A DNA stretch of 50,608 bases. It comes from an uncultured Prevotellaceae bacterium. GTDB taxonomy: Bacteria > Bacteroidota > Bacteroidia > Bacteroidales > Bacteroidaceae. The stretch lies in contig OMZE01000035.1 of the NCBI GenBank assembly GCA_900315455.1, positions 1 through 50,608 of the forward strand, in the 5' to 3' direction. The notes under the pieces were generated by a model. It was not told where the DNA came from. It saw only the letters and a program-made list of their open reading frames with translations, and searched no databases. Shown here one piece after another: positions 40,794 through 50,608 of this stretch (positions within the stretch are counted from its first letter, which is position 1; each line of letters opens with the position of its first letter). The position numbers and the translations under genes are program-made.

Positions 40794-42566
40794 TCATATC
40801 TTCTTGATGAAATCGTTGAAATCCTTCGATGTTCCCTTTTTCTTGAAGATTTTCAAGTAGAGTCTCGACCGAATGCTGTCGACACCCTGTGGCGACTTGT
40901 CCATGAGACTGCCTATCTCCTTGGAACCGAATTTCAGTTTCGTTAGCCAACAGACTTTTTCCTCCATGGCATTCAGCATTAAAGCGTCGGGAACGATTTG
41001 CAGGAAAGTGGGAAAGGCAGTCATGATACTTTCTTCCAACCGTTTCCAGTCTTCGTCGGATGGTGTCGTCGCCCTTTTCAGATGGGTTTTGAACAATGCG
41101 ATGACATCCTGCAAGCCGGTTTTGGCTTCCAGTTCCGCCGCTGGGATATCGAGAATCGCCAAAAGGTCTTTTTTCAATAGGGCAATGCCATCTTGTACCT
41201 TCTTGATATCGAGAGCCATTTCATCACTCTTTTTCAAGAAGTTGTCGATGGTCTTGTTCACCTCGTTCGTTTTTTCAAGTGGCATCCTGTCGATGTCTTG
41301 CCCGTGCTCGTCAAATGCCTTTTCCAAAGAAAGGCTGCGGTTTCTTTCTTCCGCCCGCCGCTTCATGAAGAAAGTGTAGCCCCACAGCAGCAATGAGAGC
41401 AGTGCCACACACGCCAATGTCAACACCCATACCCAAAGCGACTTTCTCTGGTTCTCTTCCTGAAGCCGCATGTTGTCCTGTTCCTTCATCGAATAGTCGT
41501 AGATGGCGGCAGCCTTCGCCAAGGCCTCAGAGGCCGTGATGCGGTTCATGGAGTCGATACACAGCACGTAGTTCTCGAAGTCGCCCCTCGCCGCTGCCAC
41601 ATCACCACGCATCAAGTCGATGCGCGTGCGATTGCGGTAGGCAATCGTTTTGCCTTGAATGGTGCCCACTTCCAAAACCTTTGCTATATAGAAAAGGGCG
41701 GAGTCGGGCTGATTTAAATGAAAATAAATCCTTGTGGCATTGGTGTAGATGGCACTTTCCTCGTGTCGATAAATATTTTTCAGCAATGGCCTTAGATACA
41801 CCTTGGCTGAATCGTAGCGCACCATCTCAATGTTATTGTCGGTAAGCGAACAGAGGATGTTCCTTATCATCATCGTGTCGCGCTTGGCCTCCGCCAACCG
41901 CAGAGCCTTGTGCAGACAGGTGTCGCATGTAGCCTTGTCTCCCACCATCTGGTAAGAGCCACCGATGTCACGGATACTGTATATCATGCTCATGGTGTCC
42001 TTTGAGGCAATACCGTAACGATATCCATCTTCAAAAAAACGTCTTGATTCCTCATACAGCATCTGCTGGGAATACAAATAGCCGGATTGACTACAAATCC
42101 AACCGTTCAGGACATTCGCGGAATCACTTGCTATCAACTCATGCGCACGGTGGAAATACCTCAGGGCCGAGGGCGCGTCGTGTTGTTTGGCAGAATGTCG
42201 CCCGGCATAATAGAGCGCGACGGGAAGCATCGCCTTATCGCCTTTGTTCTCGTAGTATTCCAGGATGTTAGGAATCTCATCCTCGCCGTCATAAGGCTGT
42301 CTTGCCCTGTCATACGCCTTGACGCACATCAGTTTGAAGGCCATCCGCGAAGCCTCGTCCTGTAGCAGCATCGAATCCCTGACCTTTTCCAACAAATTGA
42401 TGGCACTGTCGTTGTATTGCGTGGCGTTGGTCATGCTGTCGACCGTGGCCAAAACGCCCTCAAGCCTCTGATGCCTGTTGGTTGAACAACACGAAAGGAT
42501 GGTTGCCAGCACCGCCATCACGAGTATGGGGCACTGGCGTATATGTAGATTATTTTGGTAAGTCAT
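40794..42566 (-). CDS. Membrane-bound TPR regulator with C-terminal HTH
   Basis: A protein of about 590 residues of a regulator type common in Bacteroidales. The N-terminus has a lipobox-like LATILSCCSTN. A long run of TPR-like helices follows (ALYYAGRHSAKQ, ALRYFHRAHELI and others to about 350). Then come a transmembrane helix (LWVWVLTLACVALLSLLLWG) and a coiled coil. The C-terminal ~80 residues end in KFGSKEIGSLMDKSPQGVDSIRSRL, an HTH resembling LuxR-type recognition helices. It probably links a periplasmic signal to transcription. The start is chosen at 42566; 42590 and 42518 are alternatives. It overlaps the preceding small gene. Confidence 0.82.
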   Translation of the reverse strand: MTYQNNLHIRQCPILVMAVLATILSCCSTNRHQRLEGVLATVDSMTNATQYNDSAINLLEKVRDSMLLQDEASRMAFKLMCVKAYDRARQPYDGEDEIPNILEYYENKGDKAMLPVALYYAGRHSAKQHDAPSALRYFHRAHELIASDSANVLNGWICSQSGYLYSQQMLYEESRRFFEDGYRYGIASKDTMSMIYSIRDIGGSYQMVGDKATCDTCLHKALRLAEAKRDTMMIRNILCSLTDNNIEMVRYDSAKVYLRPLLKNIYRHEESAIYTNATRIYFHLNQPDSALFYIAKVLEVGTIQGKTIAYRNRTRIDLMRGDVAAARGDFENYVLCIDSMNRITASEALAKAAAIYDYSMKEQDNMRLQEENQRKSLWVWVLTLACVALLSLLLWGYTFFMKRRAEERNRSLSLEKAFDEHGQDIDRMPLEKTNEVNKTIDNFLKKSDEMALDIKKVQDGIALLKKDLLAILDIPAAELEAKTGLQDVIALFKTHLKRATTPSDEDWKRLEESIMTAFPTFLQIVPDALMLNAMEEKVCWLTKLKFGSKEIGSLMDKSPQGVDSIRSRLYLKIFKKKGTSKDFNDFIKKI

Positions 42567-42900
42567 TTGTACGTTTATTGGTGTTGTCATAGCGCTGGTG
42601 GTTCAATGATTCTGGCGCATGGTGCAGCACATAGGTGTGGTTCAGCGAGATGGTGTCCTCTATCAGCACGTTCCCCTGGATGTCCTTCACCACCACATCC
42701 ACCTGGGAAATAGTGCTGTCGCACGAAAAAGTAATCGATGTGTCGTCATAAGTCACACGGGGAATGGGTGCGCCACCCCCATTACCTCCATTCCATCCTC
42801 CACCAATATTACCACATTGCAACACCACTTCGCCCGAACTGGCCATCATGGCTATAGGTAGCAATAATAGCCATGACAAAATAAACAATTTTGTTTTCAT
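42550..42900 (-). CDS. Small secreted protein, DUF3244-like
   Basis: A 116-residue exported protein. The signal peptide MKTKLFILSWLLLLPIAMMA is followed by a Gly/Asn-rich stretch (GGGWNGGNGGG) and a short beta-sandwich-like segment (ISQVDVVVKDIQGNVLIEDT). That segment resembles small DUF3244 proteins often found beside TPR regulators. The C-terminal ~25 residues (HAPESLNHQRYDNTNKRTN) do not look like the usual closing strands, so the end may be frameshifted or truncated. Its stop overlaps the regulator start by 17 bp or more, suggesting translational coupling. Function unknown. Confidence 0.65.
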   Translation of the reverse strand: MKTKLFILSWLLLLPIAMMASSGEVVLQCGNIGGGWNGGNGGGAPIPRVTYDDTSITFSCDSTISQVDVVVKDIQGNVLIEDTISLNHTYVLHHAPESLNHQRYDNTNKRTNDLPK

Positions 42901-43145: not shown

Positions 43146-44282
43146 ATGAAAAAACTTATATTGATATTAATGACTTTTGTTAGCCTTGGCATTTCCGCCC
43201 AACTCAAGGTCTACAGCGACGGGAGCATGACCCTGGACCGTGACACCTCATTCACGGGATGCAGGTTTACCGTGGGAAACATACCGACTATCGTCAGCAA
43301 CATTCCTGTGGCATCACCAGAAAACATAGGCATTTACGGCATCGCCACGCCACAGACCAGCACATTCAATACTGGCGTGGCAGGTGTGGCGGTGGCAAAC
43401 ACCGTTACCACCGGACGTTCTTTTGGTGTCTGCGGCATCGCCGGTAACTGCACCTCGGGATACAACTATGGCGTGTTCGGTACCCTGCTGGGAACGGCAA
43501 ACGGCGCGGCGGTGTATGGTTCGACACAGAAGCCCACGGGCAGCCTGGTGCCGGGAAAGTATGCCGCTTATTTCCATGGCGACATGGTGGTGACGGGGAC
43601 GGCAACCATTACCAGTCTCAACACCCCTTCGGACATACGGCTGAAGGAGAACGTGCAGTACGTGGGGAATGGCGAGGGGCGAGCCGACATCCACTCGCGG
43701 ATGATGGATGTGCACGTCATCTCATACAACCTGAAGAAGCCAGCCCCCGAGGTGGGCGACACCGTGACTGCCACTGCCATGGACGACACCCCGGCCAAGA
43801 CCTTCTTCGGCGTGTCGGCACAGGAACTGAGGGAACTGTTCCCCGACCTTGTGGAGGAAGGGCAGGACGGATACCTCTCAGTGAACTATATCGAACTCAT
43901 ACCCATGCTCATCTGCTCGGTGCAGGAACTCTCCACAGAGGTCGACAGGCTGCGCAGGGAACTGGACGCGAAAGAAGACGCAAGGCTTGACAACGGCGAT
44001 GGTGAAAACAGCGACATCCTACGCGAATGTGCGCTCTACCAGAACACGCCCAACCCATCCTCGTCACAGACGGTGATCAGGTACAAACTCCCGGCCGAGG
44101 CCACCGATGCCTCCATCTACATCCTCAACCTCCAGGGAACGCTCATCAAGCAGATACCCGTCAGTCCGTCACAAAACAGCGTCACGGTATCTTGCACCGA
44201 CCTCGACCCGGGAATGTACTTCTACTCTCTCATAGTGGCAGGGCAGGAAGTGGATTCCAAGAAGATGATTGTAAGCATGTGA
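43146..44282 (+). CDS. Secreted protein with S74 self-processing (tail-fibre chaperone) domain and T9SS sorting domain
   Basis: A 378-residue exported protein. After the signal peptide (ending GISAQ) comes a Gly/Thr/Ala-rich beta-repeat region, to about residue 155, like a trimeric fibre shaft. The peptidase S74 chaperone domain begins at NTPSDIRLKENV (S162, K167; the SD-x-R-x-K motif of self-cleaving tail-spike chaperones). It runs through FFGVSAQELRELFPDLV and the closing coiled coil (LSTEVDRLRRELDAKED). The C-terminal ~80 residues, from YQNTPNPSSSQTVIRYKLP to the end, are a type A T9SS sorting domain. It is thus sent through the outer membrane. Its last 36 codons recur as a remnant at 47629-47736. 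Confidence 0.87.
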   Translation: MKKLILILMTFVSLGISAQLKVYSDGSMTLDRDTSFTGCRFTVGNIPTIVSNIPVASPENIGIYGIATPQTSTFNTGVAGVAVANTVTTGRSFGVCGIAGNCTSGYNYGVFGTLLGTANGAAVYGSTQKPTGSLVPGKYAAYFHGDMVVTGTATITSLNTPSDIRLKENVQYVGNGEGRADIHSRMMDVHVISYNLKKPAPEVGDTVTATAMDDTPAKTFFGVSAQELRELFPDLVEEGQDGYLSVNYIELIPMLICSVQELSTEVDRLRRELDAKEDARLDNGDGENSDILRECALYQNTPNPSSSQTVIRYKLPAEATDASIYILNLQGTLIKQIPVSPSQNSVTVSCTDLDPGMYFYSLIVAGQEVDSKKMIVSM

Positions 44283-44417
44283 TCGATAGAAATAAACAGA
44301 AGTAAATGTTATATAATCTGTCTTACAGAAAGAAAGATTCTATCAAAGAATTACGTGGCTATTTGTTAAATGTGCTAACATTTGTTAACAAAAGCACATG
44401 TGTGCTTGGCTTATTTC

Positions 44418-44425
44418 TATTTTTG
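44418..44425 (+). promoter_or_regulatory. Candidate -7 box before the first C25 protease
   Basis: TATTTTTG matches TAnnTTTG, 18 bp before the ATG. The 160-bp gap also contains two ATTTGTTAA copies (about 44361 and 44380) and GTGCT/AGCAC arms, possible operator elements. No clear -33. Confidence 0.4.
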
Positions 44426-44442
44426 TAAATGATTAACAACGA

Positions 44443-46719
44443 ATGAGATACGACATGAAGAAGACCATATTTTTGTTGCCATTCTTAATGCTTGCCTCTT
44501 TGTCATCTATGGGACAGAACGTGAAGCATGTCTCATTGGATTTCAGCATGGATGATTTCAGGATAGAGCAAGACAATGCTGGAAATGCTTTCGTGTTGTC
44601 AGACGCTCACAATTGTTTCCTAAAGTCAGACACCTTGTTGCCTGCTCTCCCATACATAGGATACAATGTACTTATTGGCAGCACCGATAAATACGACAAT
44701 CATGTTTGTTCAGACTCAAAGTCTTTATTCCGCAGCAATGTCACCATGGCCAATAACCCAGAAGCCATACCAACTAACATACTGCCTTCTGCAAATGGGA
44801 CAAAACATGCTGCATCTTATTCCCAAAGGACTTATCCCTCCGAATTTGTAGAATTTGCCGGTATGAATGAATGTGACGGCTACAGGATCCTGACTTTCCA
44901 TGTTTGTCCTTTTGAATATGACGCAACTTCCAAAAGACTGTCTCTCAGGACACACATTGACTTAGACATTCAATTAAGGCCATCCCCTTCCACCTCGTCG
45001 TCAAGGACTGGCAACAGGGAAGACGTGAGAAATATCATAAGACGAATTGTCGTCAACCCGGAAGACCTTAGTGAGCAGAATGTGCCGGCAGGCGACAGGT
45101 CATGTAACGTTTTAACAAAACAACAAGGTTTCGAGTATGTCATAGTGACCAGCAACCAATTCAAGAGCACTTTCCAAGAACTGGCCAATTGGAAAAGCCG
45201 CAAGGGGATACGTTCGAAAGTCATCACTGTGGATGATGTATTGACATACGAAGGTGCCACGACAAAAGAGAAAATCAAACGTGCTCTCGCGGATATCAGC
45301 GGCCTGTCTTACGTACTGCTTGGAGGAGACACGCTTAATGTACCCACTTGTATGTGCTATATTGGCTATCGTGAAAATACAGACAGCATCACACCCGCAG
45401 ATGTCTACTATTCATGCCTGGAAACCAAGAACTGGGACAATAATGGAAATGGTTTTTATGGTGAACTGAATGACTCTGTTTGCTTGCTCCCTGTTCTTCA
45501 TGTCTCAAGGGCTCCGGTATCAACCGTTGAGGACGCCCAAGTTTTTGTCGATAGGATCATCAATTACGAGAGCGCGCCAGATACCACCAACTGGAAAGAC
45601 AACATATTGATGTGTGGGACATCATTAGGTTGCTATGATAATTCAGGGCAAAGTGACGCGAGTATCTGGGGCCAAATGATTTATGGTCAAAATATAGACC
45701 CATTTTGGGTTGATGAACAGTGTATATATTTTTACGATACATTTACGAGTTTTGACGGAAATGCAGACCATAATTTCACCGCAGATAATCTCCAAATCGA
45801 ACTTGCCAAAGGATATACATTTGTCGATGTGTTGACTCATGGTGAAAAATTATATTGGCAAATGGAACAGGGTAATAGTTATCATTGCGACAAAGCTAAA
45901 ATTTTGATAAATTGTGGCTATTCCATAATCACTACAACTGCTTGTCTTACGAATGCCTTTGATTATTACACAGCTTTCGGCAGATGTCTCAGCCAACGTT
46001 TTATTAATAACCCAAATAGTGGTATTTTGGCATATTTGGGTACTTCCCGTGAGAATTGGGGTTCAGGGGGAGAACCATTCATTATGTTGTCTGGTGGTGA
46101 AGCATTTGAAGGAAGGGTTTATAAAAATATATTTGAAAATAAATATCATCGATTGGGAAAGGCTTTGACTGCCGTAAAAGAAGTGTATAGGGAATCTGCT
46201 ATGGCTCGTTATAATACAGCAAGAAAGCTTTTTATGGGGTATAACTTAATGGGGGATCCTGAAATGCCAATATACCTGTATAAACCAAAATCATTCCAGA
46301 ATGTCAGCATTCAAGTTGTCAATGACAGCATATATGTTGATGCGGGTACAGGTGGCTTTGATATTTGTTTCATCAACACAAGTGATTCGACAGACTATTA
46401 CATTGCAAGAGACATTGTCGATTCCTTGGCTGTATTCGGTCGCCTAGACGGAGTTTTTGATGTCTGCATTACCAAACCGGGTTATGTTCCATACATTACG
46501 ACATGTGGCGATACCTATCTCCAGAACATCACTTTGACGGGAATGAAAACATACGAGACTGGCAATGCCATGATTGGTTCTAACGTAACAAATAAAGTAG
46601 TTCAGGGACCAGTTATCACCAACAGTGGGAACACTACGCTTAAAGCAAGTCAAAGTGCCACTATCACCAAAGACTTCGAAGTAAAATTAGGAGCAAAATT
46701 CACAATAACTAATGAATAA
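44443..46719 (+). CDS. Gingipain-like C25 cysteine protease (first copy)
   Basis: A 758-residue exported protease. The signal peptide (FLLPFLMLASLSSMGQ) is followed by a prodomain to about residue 225, then the C25 catalytic domain beginning FEYVIVTSNQFKSTFQELA. The catalytic pair is in VLTHGEKLYW (H466) and TTTACLTNAFDYY (C501), 35 apart, close to the gingipain spacing. MGYNLMGDPEMPIY ends the domain. Then comes an Ig-like segment and a C-terminus with GNTTLKASQSATITKDF and LGAKFTITNE. This is not a type A T9SS tail but resembles the tail of the second C25 copy. The start may be the second Met (44455). The companion gene follows by 14 bp. Confidence 0.9.
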   Translation: MRYDMKKTIFLLPFLMLASLSSMGQNVKHVSLDFSMDDFRIEQDNAGNAFVLSDAHNCFLKSDTLLPALPYIGYNVLIGSTDKYDNHVCSDSKSLFRSNVTMANNPEAIPTNILPSANGTKHAASYSQRTYPSEFVEFAGMNECDGYRILTFHVCPFEYDATSKRLSLRTHIDLDIQLRPSPSTSSSRTGNREDVRNIIRRIVVNPEDLSEQNVPAGDRSCNVLTKQQGFEYVIVTSNQFKSTFQELANWKSRKGIRSKVITVDDVLTYEGATTKEKIKRALADISGLSYVLLGGDTLNVPTCMCYIGYRENTDSITPADVYYSCLETKNWDNNGNGFYGELNDSVCLLPVLHVSRAPVSTVEDAQVFVDRIINYESAPDTTNWKDNILMCGTSLGCYDNSGQSDASIWGQMIYGQNIDPFWVDEQCIYFYDTFTSFDGNADHNFTADNLQIELAKGYTFVDVLTHGEKLYWQMEQGNSYHCDKAKILINCGYSIITTTACLTNAFDYYTAFGRCLSQRFINNPNSGILAYLGTSRENWGSGGEPFIMLSGGEAFEGRVYKNIFENKYHRLGKALTAVKEVYRESAMARYNTARKLFMGYNLMGDPEMPIYLYKPKSFQNVSIQVVNDSIYVDAGTGGFDICFINTSDSTDYYIARDIVDSLAVFGRLDGVFDVCITKPGYVPYITTCGDTYLQNITLTGMKTYETGNAMIGSNVTNKVVQGPVITNSGNTTLKASQSATITKDFEVKLGAKFTITNE

Positions 46720-46733
46720 AACCAAATAGACAT

Positions 46734-47588
46734 ATGAGAAACCATTTTGAATTATATGGATGTGGAACACGTATCATGATGGTGTTTGTGTTTTGCAGCC
46801 TTGGTATATCGAACGCCATGGCCCAAGAGGAACGTGAATATGTGCCGTTTGTGGAAGAAGGAAAGGTTTGGTATTGTGGATATTACCATCCATGGCCCGA
46901 TTATCCGATACGACCTTTTGAGGATCCCAATGGAGAAGGTATAGACTGTACTTTTACCATGTGTGGCGACACACTTGTAAATGACATGGATTATAAAAAG
47001 GTAATCTGCCAGTTTGAGGAATACTATGGTGACGAGGAACAACACTACTACTGTGCTGTCAGAGAAGAAGACTATCAGGTGTTCATCATTGAGGAAGAGG
47101 AAACAGAGGAAAAACTTATCTATGACTTCAGCAGCCCCGGGGAACTATTTACACTAACCTATAATGGTAATCAGTTAGTTCGATCAGACGGCAAACATCG
47201 TTGGCAGTTCCTGCCTGGACAGTTGGAATATTGGCTTATCCTTCCTAGTTATGAATTAGATTGGAGATACCGCATAGGCCGTTGGGTTGAAGGCGTGGGT
47301 GCTCCTTTTGTCAATCCATTTGCTTTTGAACTCAACCCTATTTTTTACGACGAGCCGATATTTGGGAAACATATCGCTGTGCGTTCATGTATAAAAGACG
47401 GGCAGTATATTTTTAATTCTGATTGGATGGCTGTGCCGATTGATGATCCGGAAGCAATTGACAAAAGCATTTATACCAATAACTCCCCCAAAGACCCTCG
47501 ACTCTACGACCTCCAAGGCCGCCAGTTGCGCCACGCACATGCCAAGGGAGTGTACATACAGGATGGGAAGAAACGGGTGGTGAAATAA
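46734..47588 (+). CDS. Secreted companion protein with short sorting-like tail (first copy)
   Basis: A 284-residue exported protein of unknown function. The signal peptide region ends near SNAMAQE. The body begins VEEGKVWYCGYY, has CGDTLVNDMDYKKVI, AVREEDYQVFII and EKLIYDF, a pattern of a Prevotella/Bacteroides-type expanded secreted family. The end, PRLYDLQGRQLRHAHAKGVY followed by QDGKKRVVK, resembles a short T9SS-type C-terminal tail. It follows the first C25 protease by 14 bp and is probably cotranscribed. The partial gene at the window end is its paralogue. An accessory or inhibitor role for the protease is possible but not shown. Confidence 0.78.
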   Translation: MRNHFELYGCGTRIMMVFVFCSLGISNAMAQEEREYVPFVEEGKVWYCGYYHPWPDYPIRPFEDPNGEGIDCTFTMCGDTLVNDMDYKKVICQFEEYYGDEEQHYYCAVREEDYQVFIIEEEETEEKLIYDFSSPGELFTLTYNGNQLVRSDGKHRWQFLPGQLEYWLILPSYELDWRYRIGRWVEGVGAPFVNPFAFELNPIFYDEPIFGKHIAVRSCIKDGQYIFNSDWMAVPIDDPEAIDKSIYTNNSPKDPRLYDLQGRQLRHAHAKGVYIQDGKKRVVK

Positions 47589-47610
47589 CGGGGCTGAGAC
47601 GCAGCGATTC

Positions 47611-47736
47611 AGTCGTCAACCCGTTAGAAACAGCGGCACCGTATCGTGTGCCGACCTCGACTCGGGAATGTACTTCTACTCTCTCGTAGTGGCAGGACAG
47701 GAAGTGGATTCCAAGAAGATGATTATAAGCATGTAA
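47611..47736 (+). pseudogene. Remnant of a second S74/T9SS-tail gene
   Basis: From 47629 the frame reads NSGTVSCADLDSGMYFYSLV and continues through AGQEVDSKKMIISM to a stop at 47736. It aligns without gaps to the last 36 codons of the S74 gene (44175-44282), with only about 10 differences in 108 bases by eye. Weaker similarity extends to about 47611. No start codon or upstream domains remain and it lies after the stop of the companion gene, so it is a 3' gene fragment. It sits directly before the second C25 gene, the same place the intact S74 gene has before the first. Confidence 0.85.
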
Positions 47737-47754
47737 CAATATAAAAAACGAGTA

Positions 47755-50082
47755 ATGTTCAGAACAATTATAATTCTATTCATATTATTTGCTTTCTCCA
47801 TTCTAGGTGTCTTTTCACAATCAACACTAAAATTACCATCTATGCAATTAGTGAATGGAGAAGAATCCACAATTCCACAAAGAACAGTGCATTTTTTGGA
47901 TGATGGGGTATTGGTTTCATATTCCTTTAATGGAATAAATATATCTAATGACCCTATGTTTATCACTGCAAAAAGAATGCATATTATGGGCTTGGGGAAT
48001 AATTGTGAGCAAGCAGAGCCAGATTATCCTATGAGATGGGATTCTTTTGTTATCCCAAACGGAAAAACAGCAGTTGTTGAATTGTTGGATAGTAATTTTG
48101 TAATAGCCCCTATAGAAATGTCTCCTGCACAGCCTCTTTTAATGCAAAATAGCAATAATTTAGATTCTATAAATATTGTTTTACCAATTTCTCCATTTTC
48201 TGGTTATTTTCCGAATTCAGTTTGTAACAATGTATCCTGGAATTCCTATCGCGGAATAAATATCCTTTCTGTTTGTATATGTCCTATTAAATATAATTAC
48301 CAGAGCCAAGATGTCCAAATATTTAACTCTTTTACCTATAAAGTTCACTTTTCCGATATCCCCAACTATACCAATGAGCAATCTATTTCTTTCAGTCCAG
48401 AAGACAACTTTATATTTAATACTACAATAAACGGAAGTAGTGAATTGGTTAAAAGTGAAATTGCTGAGAGAACAGATTCTGTAGAAGACTTCTTTATCAT
48501 TGCTAAGGTAGGTTACGAAAATCCTGTGGAGAAACTAGCTGAATGGAAACGCAAATTAGGATTTCGTGTTCATGTTATATACAGCAATTGTTGGACACCA
48601 AATTTAATTAGAGATACTTTAAACTATAAATTACAAACTTGTGAAAATCCATACTATTTACTATTTATTGGTAACAATAATATCGTGCCGACTGAACAAC
48701 ATAGGATGAATACAACCCATTCTTCTTCATTCAATTATTATACAGATGGATTTTATACTCCTGACTCTATTTCCATAATGTCAGGCAGATTACCAGTTGG
48801 AAATGTTCAAGAAGCAGAAATAATCATAGACAAACTCATATATTATGAGCGTTATCCGATATCAGATAATCTTTTTTATGACAAAGGCCTTCATTTAGCT
48901 GTATTTCAAGACAACAAAAATCAACAAAATCAAAATATTCCTGATGGATATGAAGATTTTTGGTCTACTCGTGCATCAGAAATGATTAGAAAAGTGTTAG
49001 TACAAAAAAATAAGATTATTAACCGTTATTATGTAAATACAAATACAACCGTTACCCCAACCCATTATAATTCAAGATATGGAAATTATGCTGAAATACC
49101 ACAAGATGTTGTAACTTTAATTAATAATGGAAGTACTACACAAGATGTAATTAACAATATTAACAATGGGTGTTATTATATTCTGAGCATTCTTCATGGC
49201 GGCCCAGATGGATGGTGGACTATACCTTTTTATGAAGGCGACATTCCATATCTCAACAATCACAACAAACCACCAATTATTTTCAGCATGAGTTGCCAAA
49301 CAGGTACTTTCCTTGATGACAATAATATAGCACAACGATTTCTTTCATACCCTAATGGTGGGTGCATTGCTTTTATTTCACCCTCCGCTGATACTCATGC
49401 GGCATATACAGAAGCGTTGGCATTAGGAATGTTTGATGCAATTTGGCCCGATTCTTCTTTAGTTTTAAAATTAAAAAGAAGTAGTATCGGGGAGTTGACG
49501 ACTCCTATTCCAACATATAGGTTGGGACAAATATTAAATCAAGGGCTGGCACGAATGGAGGAGATTTGTGAACATACTTGGCTGAGTTATCAAAAAAGGA
49601 TTTTCCATTGTTTAGGAGATCCTAGCATGTTTTTTCCAACATGTCAACCAACCCCATTCGAAAACATTTCTATTACACGTACATTATCGAATGTTCACGT
49701 AGATACAGGAACAAATTATCCTACAAAGATTTCTTTCTATAACAAATCAACTGGAGATATTAAAGTAAAATATGGAACTCAAGCCGACTATACTACTTCT
49801 GAAAACAATATTCACAATATAAGTGTAAGTGTTTCTTACCATAATAAGATACCATTTGTAGAGGATCCTTCTGAACTCATTTGCCTGCAAAATACAACAA
49901 TTCATAGTAATCAAACGATTGCTGGTGCTTACGTGATTTCAGGTAGTCAAGTAACAACTAACAGACCTTTTGGACCTGTTGTTTTTGAGGGAAATAACAT
50001 TGAAATTAAGGCGGAATCGGTTGAATTTCAAGGCGAGACAACCATTTCCTTTGGTTCAACATTTGAAATAACCAATCCATAA
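47755..50082 (+). CDS. Gingipain-like C25 cysteine protease (second copy)
   Basis: A 775-residue exported protease, much more AT-rich than the genes to its left (about 35% GC by eye). Signal peptide to about residue 22, prodomain to about 245, then the catalytic domain from DFFIIAKVGYENPVEKLAEW. Catalytic residues are H481 in ILHGGPDGWW and C514 in FSMSCQTGTF, 33 apart, the same spacing as the gingipain His/Cys pair. HCLGDPSMFFPT closes the domain. The tail ends VEFQGETTISFGSTFEITNP, matching the first copy's ending style. Overall identity to the first copy is low, so the copies are old or separately acquired. A companion paralogue starts 5 bp after it. Confidence 0.9.
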   Translation: MFRTIIILFILFAFSILGVFSQSTLKLPSMQLVNGEESTIPQRTVHFLDDGVLVSYSFNGINISNDPMFITAKRMHIMGLGNNCEQAEPDYPMRWDSFVIPNGKTAVVELLDSNFVIAPIEMSPAQPLLMQNSNNLDSINIVLPISPFSGYFPNSVCNNVSWNSYRGINILSVCICPIKYNYQSQDVQIFNSFTYKVHFSDIPNYTNEQSISFSPEDNFIFNTTINGSSELVKSEIAERTDSVEDFFIIAKVGYENPVEKLAEWKRKLGFRVHVIYSNCWTPNLIRDTLNYKLQTCENPYYLLFIGNNNIVPTEQHRMNTTHSSSFNYYTDGFYTPDSISIMSGRLPVGNVQEAEIIIDKLIYYERYPISDNLFYDKGLHLAVFQDNKNQQNQNIPDGYEDFWSTRASEMIRKVLVQKNKIINRYYVNTNTTVTPTHYNSRYGNYAEIPQDVVTLINNGSTTQDVINNINNGCYYILSILHGGPDGWWTIPFYEGDIPYLNNHNKPPIIFSMSCQTGTFLDDNNIAQRFLSYPNGGCIAFISPSADTHAAYTEALALGMFDAIWPDSSLVLKLKRSSIGELTTPIPTYRLGQILNQGLARMEEICEHTWLSYQKRIFHCLGDPSMFFPTCQPTPFENISITRTLSNVHVDTGTNYPTKISFYNKSTGDIKVKYGTQADYTTSENNIHNISVSVSYHNKIPFVEDPSELICLQNTTIHSNQTIAGAYVISGSQVTTNRPFGPVVFEGNNIEIKAESVEFQGETTISFGSTFEITNP

Positions 50083-50087
50083 ACGGC

Positions 50088-50608
50088 ATGAGGACAAGAC
50101 AAATACTGCTAACCGTCATCACGTTGTTGCTCAACTATCAAGTCTTGCATGGTGAAATATACAACCTATTTCTTGAGGAAGGAAAAGAGTGGCTATGCCA
50201 TACAATAGAAAACGACGACGAGGAATACGACACTCGGTATTATCTTAGGGGAGACACCATGCTATTAGGTAAAACATACGCCTGTATGTATGCTTACAAT
50301 TACAAGAACAAGGGCAAGACTGAATTTCTGGCAGCCCTAAGGGAACAAGGTGACTCAGTGATGTGTATAAACCGAAACACCTCAAAAGAGTACTTGCTCT
50401 ATGATTTCGGGCTTAACCACGTGTCAGGCGTGCGAGACGGCGTGAATGTGGGCTATTCCCGGCAGGATTACTGTGAGATGTCATTATGCGACACCATTAC
50501 CGTGGGTGGAAAGGATTTCAGAAGAATCTACCTAAACTTGTATTTCTATGGTGGGGAGAACTCGACGTTTTGGGTAAGCGGTGTAGGGTCAAACACATCA
50601 CCTCTTGA
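50088..50608 (+). CDS. Secreted companion protein (second copy), cut by window end
   Basis: The open frame from ATG 50088 runs to the window edge (173 codons, no stop). Signal peptide MRTRQILLTVITLLLNYQVL, then FLEEGKEWLCHTIEN, LRGDTMLLGKTYACM, AALREQGDSVMCI and EYLLYDFGLN. These line up with EEGKVWYC, CGDTLVNDMDYKKV, AVREEDYQVFI and KLIYDF of the companion at 46734-47588, so the two are paralogues. It follows the second C25 gene by 5 bp, as the first companion follows the first protease. Base composition returns towards the window average here. The C-terminal tail is not visible. Confidence 0.8.
   Translation, partial: MRTRQILLTVITLLLNYQVLHGEIYNLFLEEGKEWLCHTIENDDEEYDTRYYLRGDTMLLGKTYACMYAYNYKNKGKTEFLAALREQGDSVMCINRNTSKEYLLYDFGLNHVSGVRDGVNVGYSRQDYCEMSLCDTITVGGKDFRRIYLNLYFYGGENSTFWVSGVGSNTSPL

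Follow-up and report, generated by a model that had tools for sequence, protein, structure and literature searches.

A recurrent Bacteroidales locus of an S74 protein with a type IX sorting tail, a variable and mostly tail-less effector, and a companion: a candidate for type IX secretion in trans

Genes of the window and its tail repeat

The window, that is, the whole stretch of DNA analysed here, is one entire contig (C79; 50,608 bases) of an assembly of 4.76 Mb in 93 contigs with 8% contamination; a plasmid origin was considered and rejected, as megablast returned no plasmid match. A regulator and a small secreted protein on the minus strand are followed on the plus strand by a gene with an S74 domain and a type IX secretion system (T9SS) tail, hereafter the carrier, and by two successive pairs of a C25 protease and a companion gene (Table 1). 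All five open reading frames of the preliminary description are present, with protease–companion gaps of 14 and 5 bp, and the features it reported for their products (the His/Cys pair kept in both proteases; the motifs EEGKxW, GDT, RE, and YDF in both companions) were recovered. The second companion is incomplete because contig C79 ends at base 50,608.

Table 1. Position and annotation of the features of the carrier locus in the window
Feature	Position	Strand	Basis
TPR regulator, BT3442-like	40794..42590	-	NCBIfam NF053779, 59.6 bits, far under the cut-off of 940
Small secreted DUF3244-like protein	42550..42900	-	Pfam PF11589, 18.4 bits; cut-off of 25 not reached
Carrier, 378 aa: apparent signal peptide (by eye), probable beta-rich stalk, S74 domain, T9SS type A tail	43146..44282	+	
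S74 (intramolecular chaperone) domain of carrier; Ser162-Lys167 dyad, predicted cut between P161 and S162	43629..43853	+	
T9SS type A sorting tail of carrier	44049..44273	+	PF18962, residues 302-376
C25 protease a (C25a)	44443..46719	+	PF01364, 8.5e-51, 173.8 bits; no T9SS tail found
Catalytic His466 and Cys501 of C25a	45838..45945	+	Alignment columns
Coathanger-like beta stack, C-terminal in C25a	46531..46716	+	Alignment and genome-wide stack search
Companion 1, short T9SS-type tail at end	46734..47588	+	
Orphan T9SS-tail remnant of a carrier gene	47605..47736	+	DNA repeat, last ~43 codons
C25 protease b (C25b), His481 and Cys514	47755..50082	+	PF01364, 1.4e-42, 146.8 bits; Propeptide_C25, 23.8 bits; no T9SS tail found
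Coathanger-like C-terminal stack of C25b	49894..50079	+	Alignment and stack search
Companion 2, cut off by contig end	50088..50608	+	

The carrier of the window scores above the Pfam cut-offs for both Peptidase_S74 (27.6 bits; cut-off 22) and Por_Secre_tail (36.2 bits; cut-off 27). NCBIfam and Pfam searches with C25a and C25b returned no match to TIGR04183 (for C25a, at E ≤ 1) or PF18962. The coathanger model NF045639 (GCX_COOH, 3-coathanger stack; cut-off 26 bits) matched C25a at 13.1 bits and gave no match to C25b; it is exceeded in the relatives L037, L046, L156, L157, L165, and L167. Three C25 genes occur in the source genome: these two and a longer one with a PorU-sized frame of 1253 aa. 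Gingipains and PorU belong to the same catalytic family (peptidase family C25), with the same His/Cys pair and a gingipain-like prodomain; the proteases of the window differ from them in that no T9SS tail was found on the protease, the C-terminus is coathanger-like, and a carrier is encoded next door.

The carrier was initially described as a self-processing S74 protein, and the window copy does retain an intact S162/K167 dyad after P161. This arrangement, a Ser-Lys dyad behind a proline, corresponds to the reported cleavage site of MyRF and endoNF (PMC8326128), and the S74 profile matches the structures 8jov, 6f45, and 7dc3. The carrier thus resembles the S74/ICA domains of phage tailspikes and MyRF in this dyad but differs in the T9SS tail behind the domain and in the frequent absence of the dyad among its relatives. 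Por_Secre_tail (PF18962, E ≤ 0.001) was found in 57 of 58 carriers, while Peptidase_S74 (PF13884) was detectable in 31; the dyad is replaced in L033, L034, L035, and others, or not alignable, in many relatives. The constant part is therefore the T9SS tail rather than S74 processing, and self-processing, though compatible with the window copy, does not define the group. A mechanism in which autocleavage is the key step, such that a trimeric carrier is exported, cuts itself before S74, and frees a stalk-bound enzyme, would make sense of the MyRF/endoNF-type Pro-Ser site in the window copy (PMC8326128); given the patchy detection of S74 and the replaced dyads, we consider it improbable.

The arrangement had also been read as a duplicated cassette with an S74 remnant heading the second copy, and this reading does not hold. 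C25a and C25b are only ~22% identical in aligned stretches, the companions 28% identical over 98 aa, and the supposed remnant lacks an S74 domain, retaining only the end of a T9SS tail. What recurs is a stretch of 107 nt (44174-44280 and 47628-47734; 92% identical). Its first copy lies at the 3' terminus of the S74 gene, and the likeness stops at the stop codon. GC content is 37–45% in one gene set and 31–37% in the other; together with the low protease and companion identities, this difference rules out a recent tandem duplication.

Recurrence of the locus and range of its effectors

The predicted association of S74/T9SS genes with C25 proteases was borne out in the source genome and 59 relatives, where a C25 gene lies within 2.5 kb of 6 of 43 S74 rows (42 genes), versus 0.25 expected. 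Profiles built from the first finds and run on 378 genomes of the genus identified carriers in 61 (77 rows) and short C25s in at least 26 (at least 30 rows, two candidates per genome being scored); S74 genes that lack a T9SS tail were treated as a separate group. Of the 77 carrier rows, 62 were examined, window included, the other 15 being mostly partial or low-scoring; the split carrier of L116 was counted as one, and one (G204) of the eight carrier-free C25 rows was left out. The locus commonly opens with a TPR regulator and a DUF3244-like gene, followed by the carrier, a variable effector, and often a companion. Of 52 evaluable carriers, 37 have the regulator among the three genes upstream (divergent in two of these) and 31 have the DUF3244-like gene there; most relatives with a regulator have it on the same strand. 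Both are divergent in the window.

Among 314 genomes of the order, a carrier and a C25 gene lie close together on one contig in at least seven, each of another family (G058, G473, G459, G609, G053, G690, and G486); the C25 gene comes first in G690, and two companion-core genes separate carrier and protease in G459. Twenty loci beyond the genus, picked by carrier score or C25 neighbourhood, were examined. There the carriers adjoin C25, C1, M12, M43-like, C10 (with Spi prodomain), C13, S8, and GH16 proteins; many of these loci also have a companion-core gene, and the partners of the carrier are accordingly not limited to peptidases. A GH16-like protein follows the carrier in L155 (under the cut-off), L161, and L165; in L166 the gene behind the carrier encodes a large protein, probably the sortilin-like one mentioned below, whose end resembles a stack. 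The carrier–C25 pair of G053 is followed by a small lipoprotein and then, twice, by a C25 3' fragment with another small protein; arrays of small lipoprotein-like genes in this genome, each preceded by a C25 3' fragment (L037, 8979-11431; L046, 118-3636), resemble orphan effector–immunity modules.

The suggestion that the three proteins work together thus stands insofar as the genes belong together, S74/T9SS and C25 adjacency recurring in the genus and in other families, but C25 is only one of several interchangeable effectors. This recurrence also bears on the simplest alternative, an ordinary tandem duplication of unrelated surface genes without functional link. Surface genes often cluster, and the window does contain the 107-nt repeat, but copies sharing about 22% identity, and an association found in many genomes and several families far above chance, make this explanation very improbable. 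A literature search of listings and abstract openings, with most subscription papers outside its coverage, found no paper pairing S74 with T9SS or C25 and no description of a tagged surface carrier with swappable enzymes in Bacteroidales.

Across 60 carriers, the next gene encodes a C25 protease in 22 (one a stub), a papain (C1) in 13, an Rhs arrangement in 6, an LRR_5-like protein in 5, an S8 protease in 4, a trypsin-like protein in 3, and an M12 protein in 2, with other genes or a contig end in 5. These labels were assigned with Pfam, the home-made C25 and C1 profiles containing the stack and also picking up S8, trypsin-like, and one sortilin-like protein; the Rhs label is backed by Pfam in two of the six arrangements, and two trypsin-like genes were taken, on the basis of identity and N-terminus, to be those of L070 and the first of L116. 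A C25-family gene follows the LRR_5-like gene in three of the five cases (one was tested, and lay under the Pfam cut-off). The LRR_5-like protein between carrier and C25 gene in L093, L097, and L113 is ~380 aa long; the C25 protein of L097 and L113 measures ~1590 aa, with FG-GAP repeats in L097. In the Rhs loci (L074, L083, L098, L100, L107, and L117), the carrier is followed by a stack protein of ~110 aa with an Rhs-like YD motif at its end. Behind it, in five of six (L117 is cut), come a protein of ~2000 aa, which Pfam identifies as SpvB/FG-GAP/RHS in both cases tested, and a putative immunity gene of 120–160 aa, present in L074 as two related copies.

Sequence comparison of carriers within genomes suggests how such variety may arise. 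Four of six same-genus genomes with two or three carriers have the last 240 nt of these genes 84–96% alike and the upstream part 56–74% alike; G105 and G181 are exceptions, with tails 66 and 70% alike, whereas G053, which belongs to another family, has carriers alike in both parts (99 and 95%). The mean similarity of carrier 3' ends between genomes is 64%. For eight of nine carrier pairs, the stop codon marks the point where similarity drops to the background level. The pattern fits a role of the carrier 3' end as a recombination anchor. Conserved 3' ends of both carrier and effector may serve as anchors for the swapping of downstream genes, which would explain the orphan tail between the two C25–companion pairs of the window. 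Locus L116, in which one carrier is followed by a trypsin-like protein with companion and then a papain with companion, has the same layout as the window.

Sorting tails and the coathanger stack

A protein exported by the T9SS is ordinarily recognised by a tail of its own. None of the 11 C25s tested in carrier loci (among them C25b, sited behind the tail remnant) has a TIGR04183 tail at E ≤ 0.1, versus all seven carrier-free C25s tested (Fisher P 3e-5), three of whose tails score above the curated cut-off and four below it. An eighth carrier-free C25, L036, ends in a coathanger stack. Por_Secre_tail was detected at E ≤ 0.01 in 0 of 19 C1-, trypsin-, and sortilin-type effectors and in 1 of 25 C25, S8, and M12 effectors, the single bearer, judging from the sequences, being in all likelihood the M12 protein L087. 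A stack is present in both M12 effectors; L078 has a T9SS tail as well, and L087 probably does too. A home-made T9SS-tail profile, which missed known tails in L078 and L123-L128, was not used as evidence.

At their C-terminus, the C25s encoded next to carriers have a beta-rich repeat akin to the NCBIfam 3-coathanger stack, as do the S8 effectors. Papains and two trypsin-like proteins end in a distinct and weakly related subtype (hhalign 77%), the trypsin-like L069 is without a recognisable stack, and the Rhs loci encode the stack as a separate protein of ~110 aa. When the 378 genus genomes were searched with a stack profile, 25 matches fell in open frames >400 aa, and 22 of these are immediately preceded by a carrier. 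Some circularity remains in this count, as carrier-linked genes were the source of both the stack and the carrier profiles; the three exceptions are C25b (tail remnant upstream), G032:C63, and G089 (carrier downstream). Seventeen carrier-bearing genomes outside the genus contain 16 GCX_COOH proteins in frames >300 aa, of which 10 lie beside a carrier among those listed, 2 at contig ends, and 4 away.

The stack might alternatively be an independent sorting signal, for the T9SS or another route, with the carrier a co-regulated adhesin or fibre rather than an export partner. The fibre-like character of the S74 carriers speaks for this, as does the existence of a separate NCBIfam model (GCX_COOH) for the stack as a C-terminal domain; 4 of the 16 longer GCX_COOH proteins just described are not near a carrier among those listed, and T9SS C-terminal domains of types A, B, and C differ in sequence (PMC10202324). 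Yet an autonomous signal would not need the position directly after a carrier that nearly all full-length stack proteins of the genus occupy (22/25), the tested carrier-free C25s bear a T9SS-type tail instead, and the stack of the Rhs loci is a separate small protein beside the carrier. We regard an independent signal as unlikely, although with an appreciable chance of being correct.

The reading we prefer is that the carrier provides export in trans. Encoded just before the effector, the carrier would combine a stalk, an often-eroded S74 trimerisation/chaperone domain, and a T9SS tail, while the effector, a hydrolase or Rhs protein mostly without a T9SS tail of its own, would present the coathanger stack at its end. 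Docking of the stack on the carrier would take place in the periplasm; export and anchoring of the carrier–effector complex would fall to the T9SS, with the carrier acting as the export signal. Both docking and export in trans are predicted here from the tail dichotomy and gene adjacency.

The companion family and comparison with known systems

Because 27 of 96 labelled companion genes were matched by their common short tail alone, counts for this family are based on a core profile that excludes the tail. A companion-core gene lies directly after 16 of 23 C25 genes in carrier loci and 6 of 8 without a carrier, as well as after 7 of 12 C1, 2 of 3 trypsin-like, and 1 of 2 M12 genes; none was found directly after S8 genes (0/3), the 1590-aa C25s (0/2), or Rhs genes (0/5). 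Proteases as a whole are followed by a companion core in 32 of 53 cases, versus 0 of 5 for Rhs (P 0.014). The mere background rate beside C25 genes that would mark a scattered family was not observed, although only two of the seven companion-domain genes of the source genome are beside C25. The domain is also found away from proteases, fused to LRR proteins and in tandem repeats. The companion also led to two named records, Prevotellaceae bacterium HUN156 and the uncultured Bacteroidales MAG RUG13701.

Companions also occur where only the 3' end of a protease is left. Twenty-eight short stack matches comprised 20 such stub loci (18 evaluable), one match in L088, and seven that were left out. 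A companion-core gene lies directly downstream of the stub in 15 of 18 loci, or 13 of 16 without the near-copies L131 and L140; it directly follows the TPR regulator in several. The loci without a companion core directly downstream are L129, L142, and L146 (tail only). These counts indicate that companions usually survive protease loss, in the manner of orphan immunity genes. On a companion-core tree, partners of C25 cluster, with 14 changes versus 19.7 after shuffling (10 of 1000 as low). There were 6 changes versus 9.1 for C25 against C1 plus trypsin-like partners (4/1000) and 6 versus 7.5 for C25 against C1 alone (84/1000), the latter a separation that is not clear; the second and third trees excluded L131 and L140.

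A short T9SS-type tail ends 56 of 64 companions by pattern; such tails are like the short T9SS C-terminal domains of Prevotella intermedia that are reported to be cleaved and glycosylated (PMC11969387). The companions of L151 and L153 look, by eye, like lipoproteins. A profile search of solved structures returned a tail-only match to 4kca (E 7e-4) and one match at E 0.99, and an AlphaFold2 model built from five sequences was unusable (mean pLDDT 37.1, pTM 0.33).

Of the roles first suggested for the companion (substrate, chaperone, or inhibitor), the data lean towards an inhibitor or immunity protein, as judged from its position, its persistence beside decayed proteases, and the clustering of C25 partners. 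The companion could instead be a co-effector, an adhesin, or a substrate processed by the protease, which we hold to be a considerable possibility, if short of probable: most companions have a short T9SS-type tail of their own (56/64 by pattern), some are fused to LRR domains or repeated in tandem, and five of seven in the source genome are away from C25 genes. Against these roles stand retention beside 15 of 18 protease stubs, absence from the five Rhs loci, the tree, and the lipoprotein-like appearance (by eye) of the two companions above.

Known systems offer partial parallels. Polymorphic toxin systems, including the TANFOR toxins of Bacteroidetes, likewise join a constant delivery part, a variable effector, and a downstream immunity-like gene, and genes with T9SS tails are neighbours of TANFOR toxins; but delivery and toxin domains there share one polypeptide (PMC7073777), whereas here, in the window and the tabulated loci, they are separate genes and the effectors are mostly peptidases. 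The position and retention of the companion would fit an immunity role of this kind. The KLIKK–potempin pairs of Tannerella forsythia (PMC4404884; PMC7296668) are alike in that unrelated secreted proteases each have a small partner gene, an adjacency also seen here. The partner in those pairs is a lipoprotein reported as a specific inhibitor, whereas for the companion we infer inhibition. Different KLIKK proteases share near-identical C-terminal domains of their own, with no carrier gene in the passages seen, and the KLIKK ending of these domains is not present in the C-terminal sequences of the proteases described here. Their mutually dissimilar lipoproteins are encoded before the protease, whereas here one companion family follows several protease classes. 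By analogy, the locus appears to resemble both systems in function, but it fails their defining features.

Taken as a whole, the locus may be a modular Bacteroidales surface-effector system in which a carrier lends export and anchoring in trans to an interchangeable effector and the companion is a surface inhibitor, a model to which we give nearly an even chance. The companion would reach the cell surface via its own short T9SS-type tail and shield the producer from its own protease. More tentatively, and as something possible rather than probable, we propose that type IX secretion may operate here in trans. Enzymes that lack a T9SS signal of their own would be exported and displayed in complex with a dedicated S74/T9SS carrier that reads a common coathanger tag; through the exchange of cassettes, one carrier could be re-armed with a member of any of nine or more hydrolase families or with an Rhs toxin, in many cases together with a surface immunity protein. 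If so, a carrier lending its signal to tagged enzymes would change prediction of the T9SS secretome and explain the tail-less secreted proteases of these bacteria; the stack would provide a natural tag for surface display, and the companion family would represent a new class of bacterial protease inhibitors.

Elsewhere in the source genome (C9:2468-4567; L032), a companion starts 12 bp behind a gene with a similar short tail which, from its signature, we take to be a serpin, with a TPR regulator and an LRR-like protein beside it. Contigs C62, C66, C77, and C79 of this genome end in or near companion genes, perhaps because the repeated short tails break assembly.
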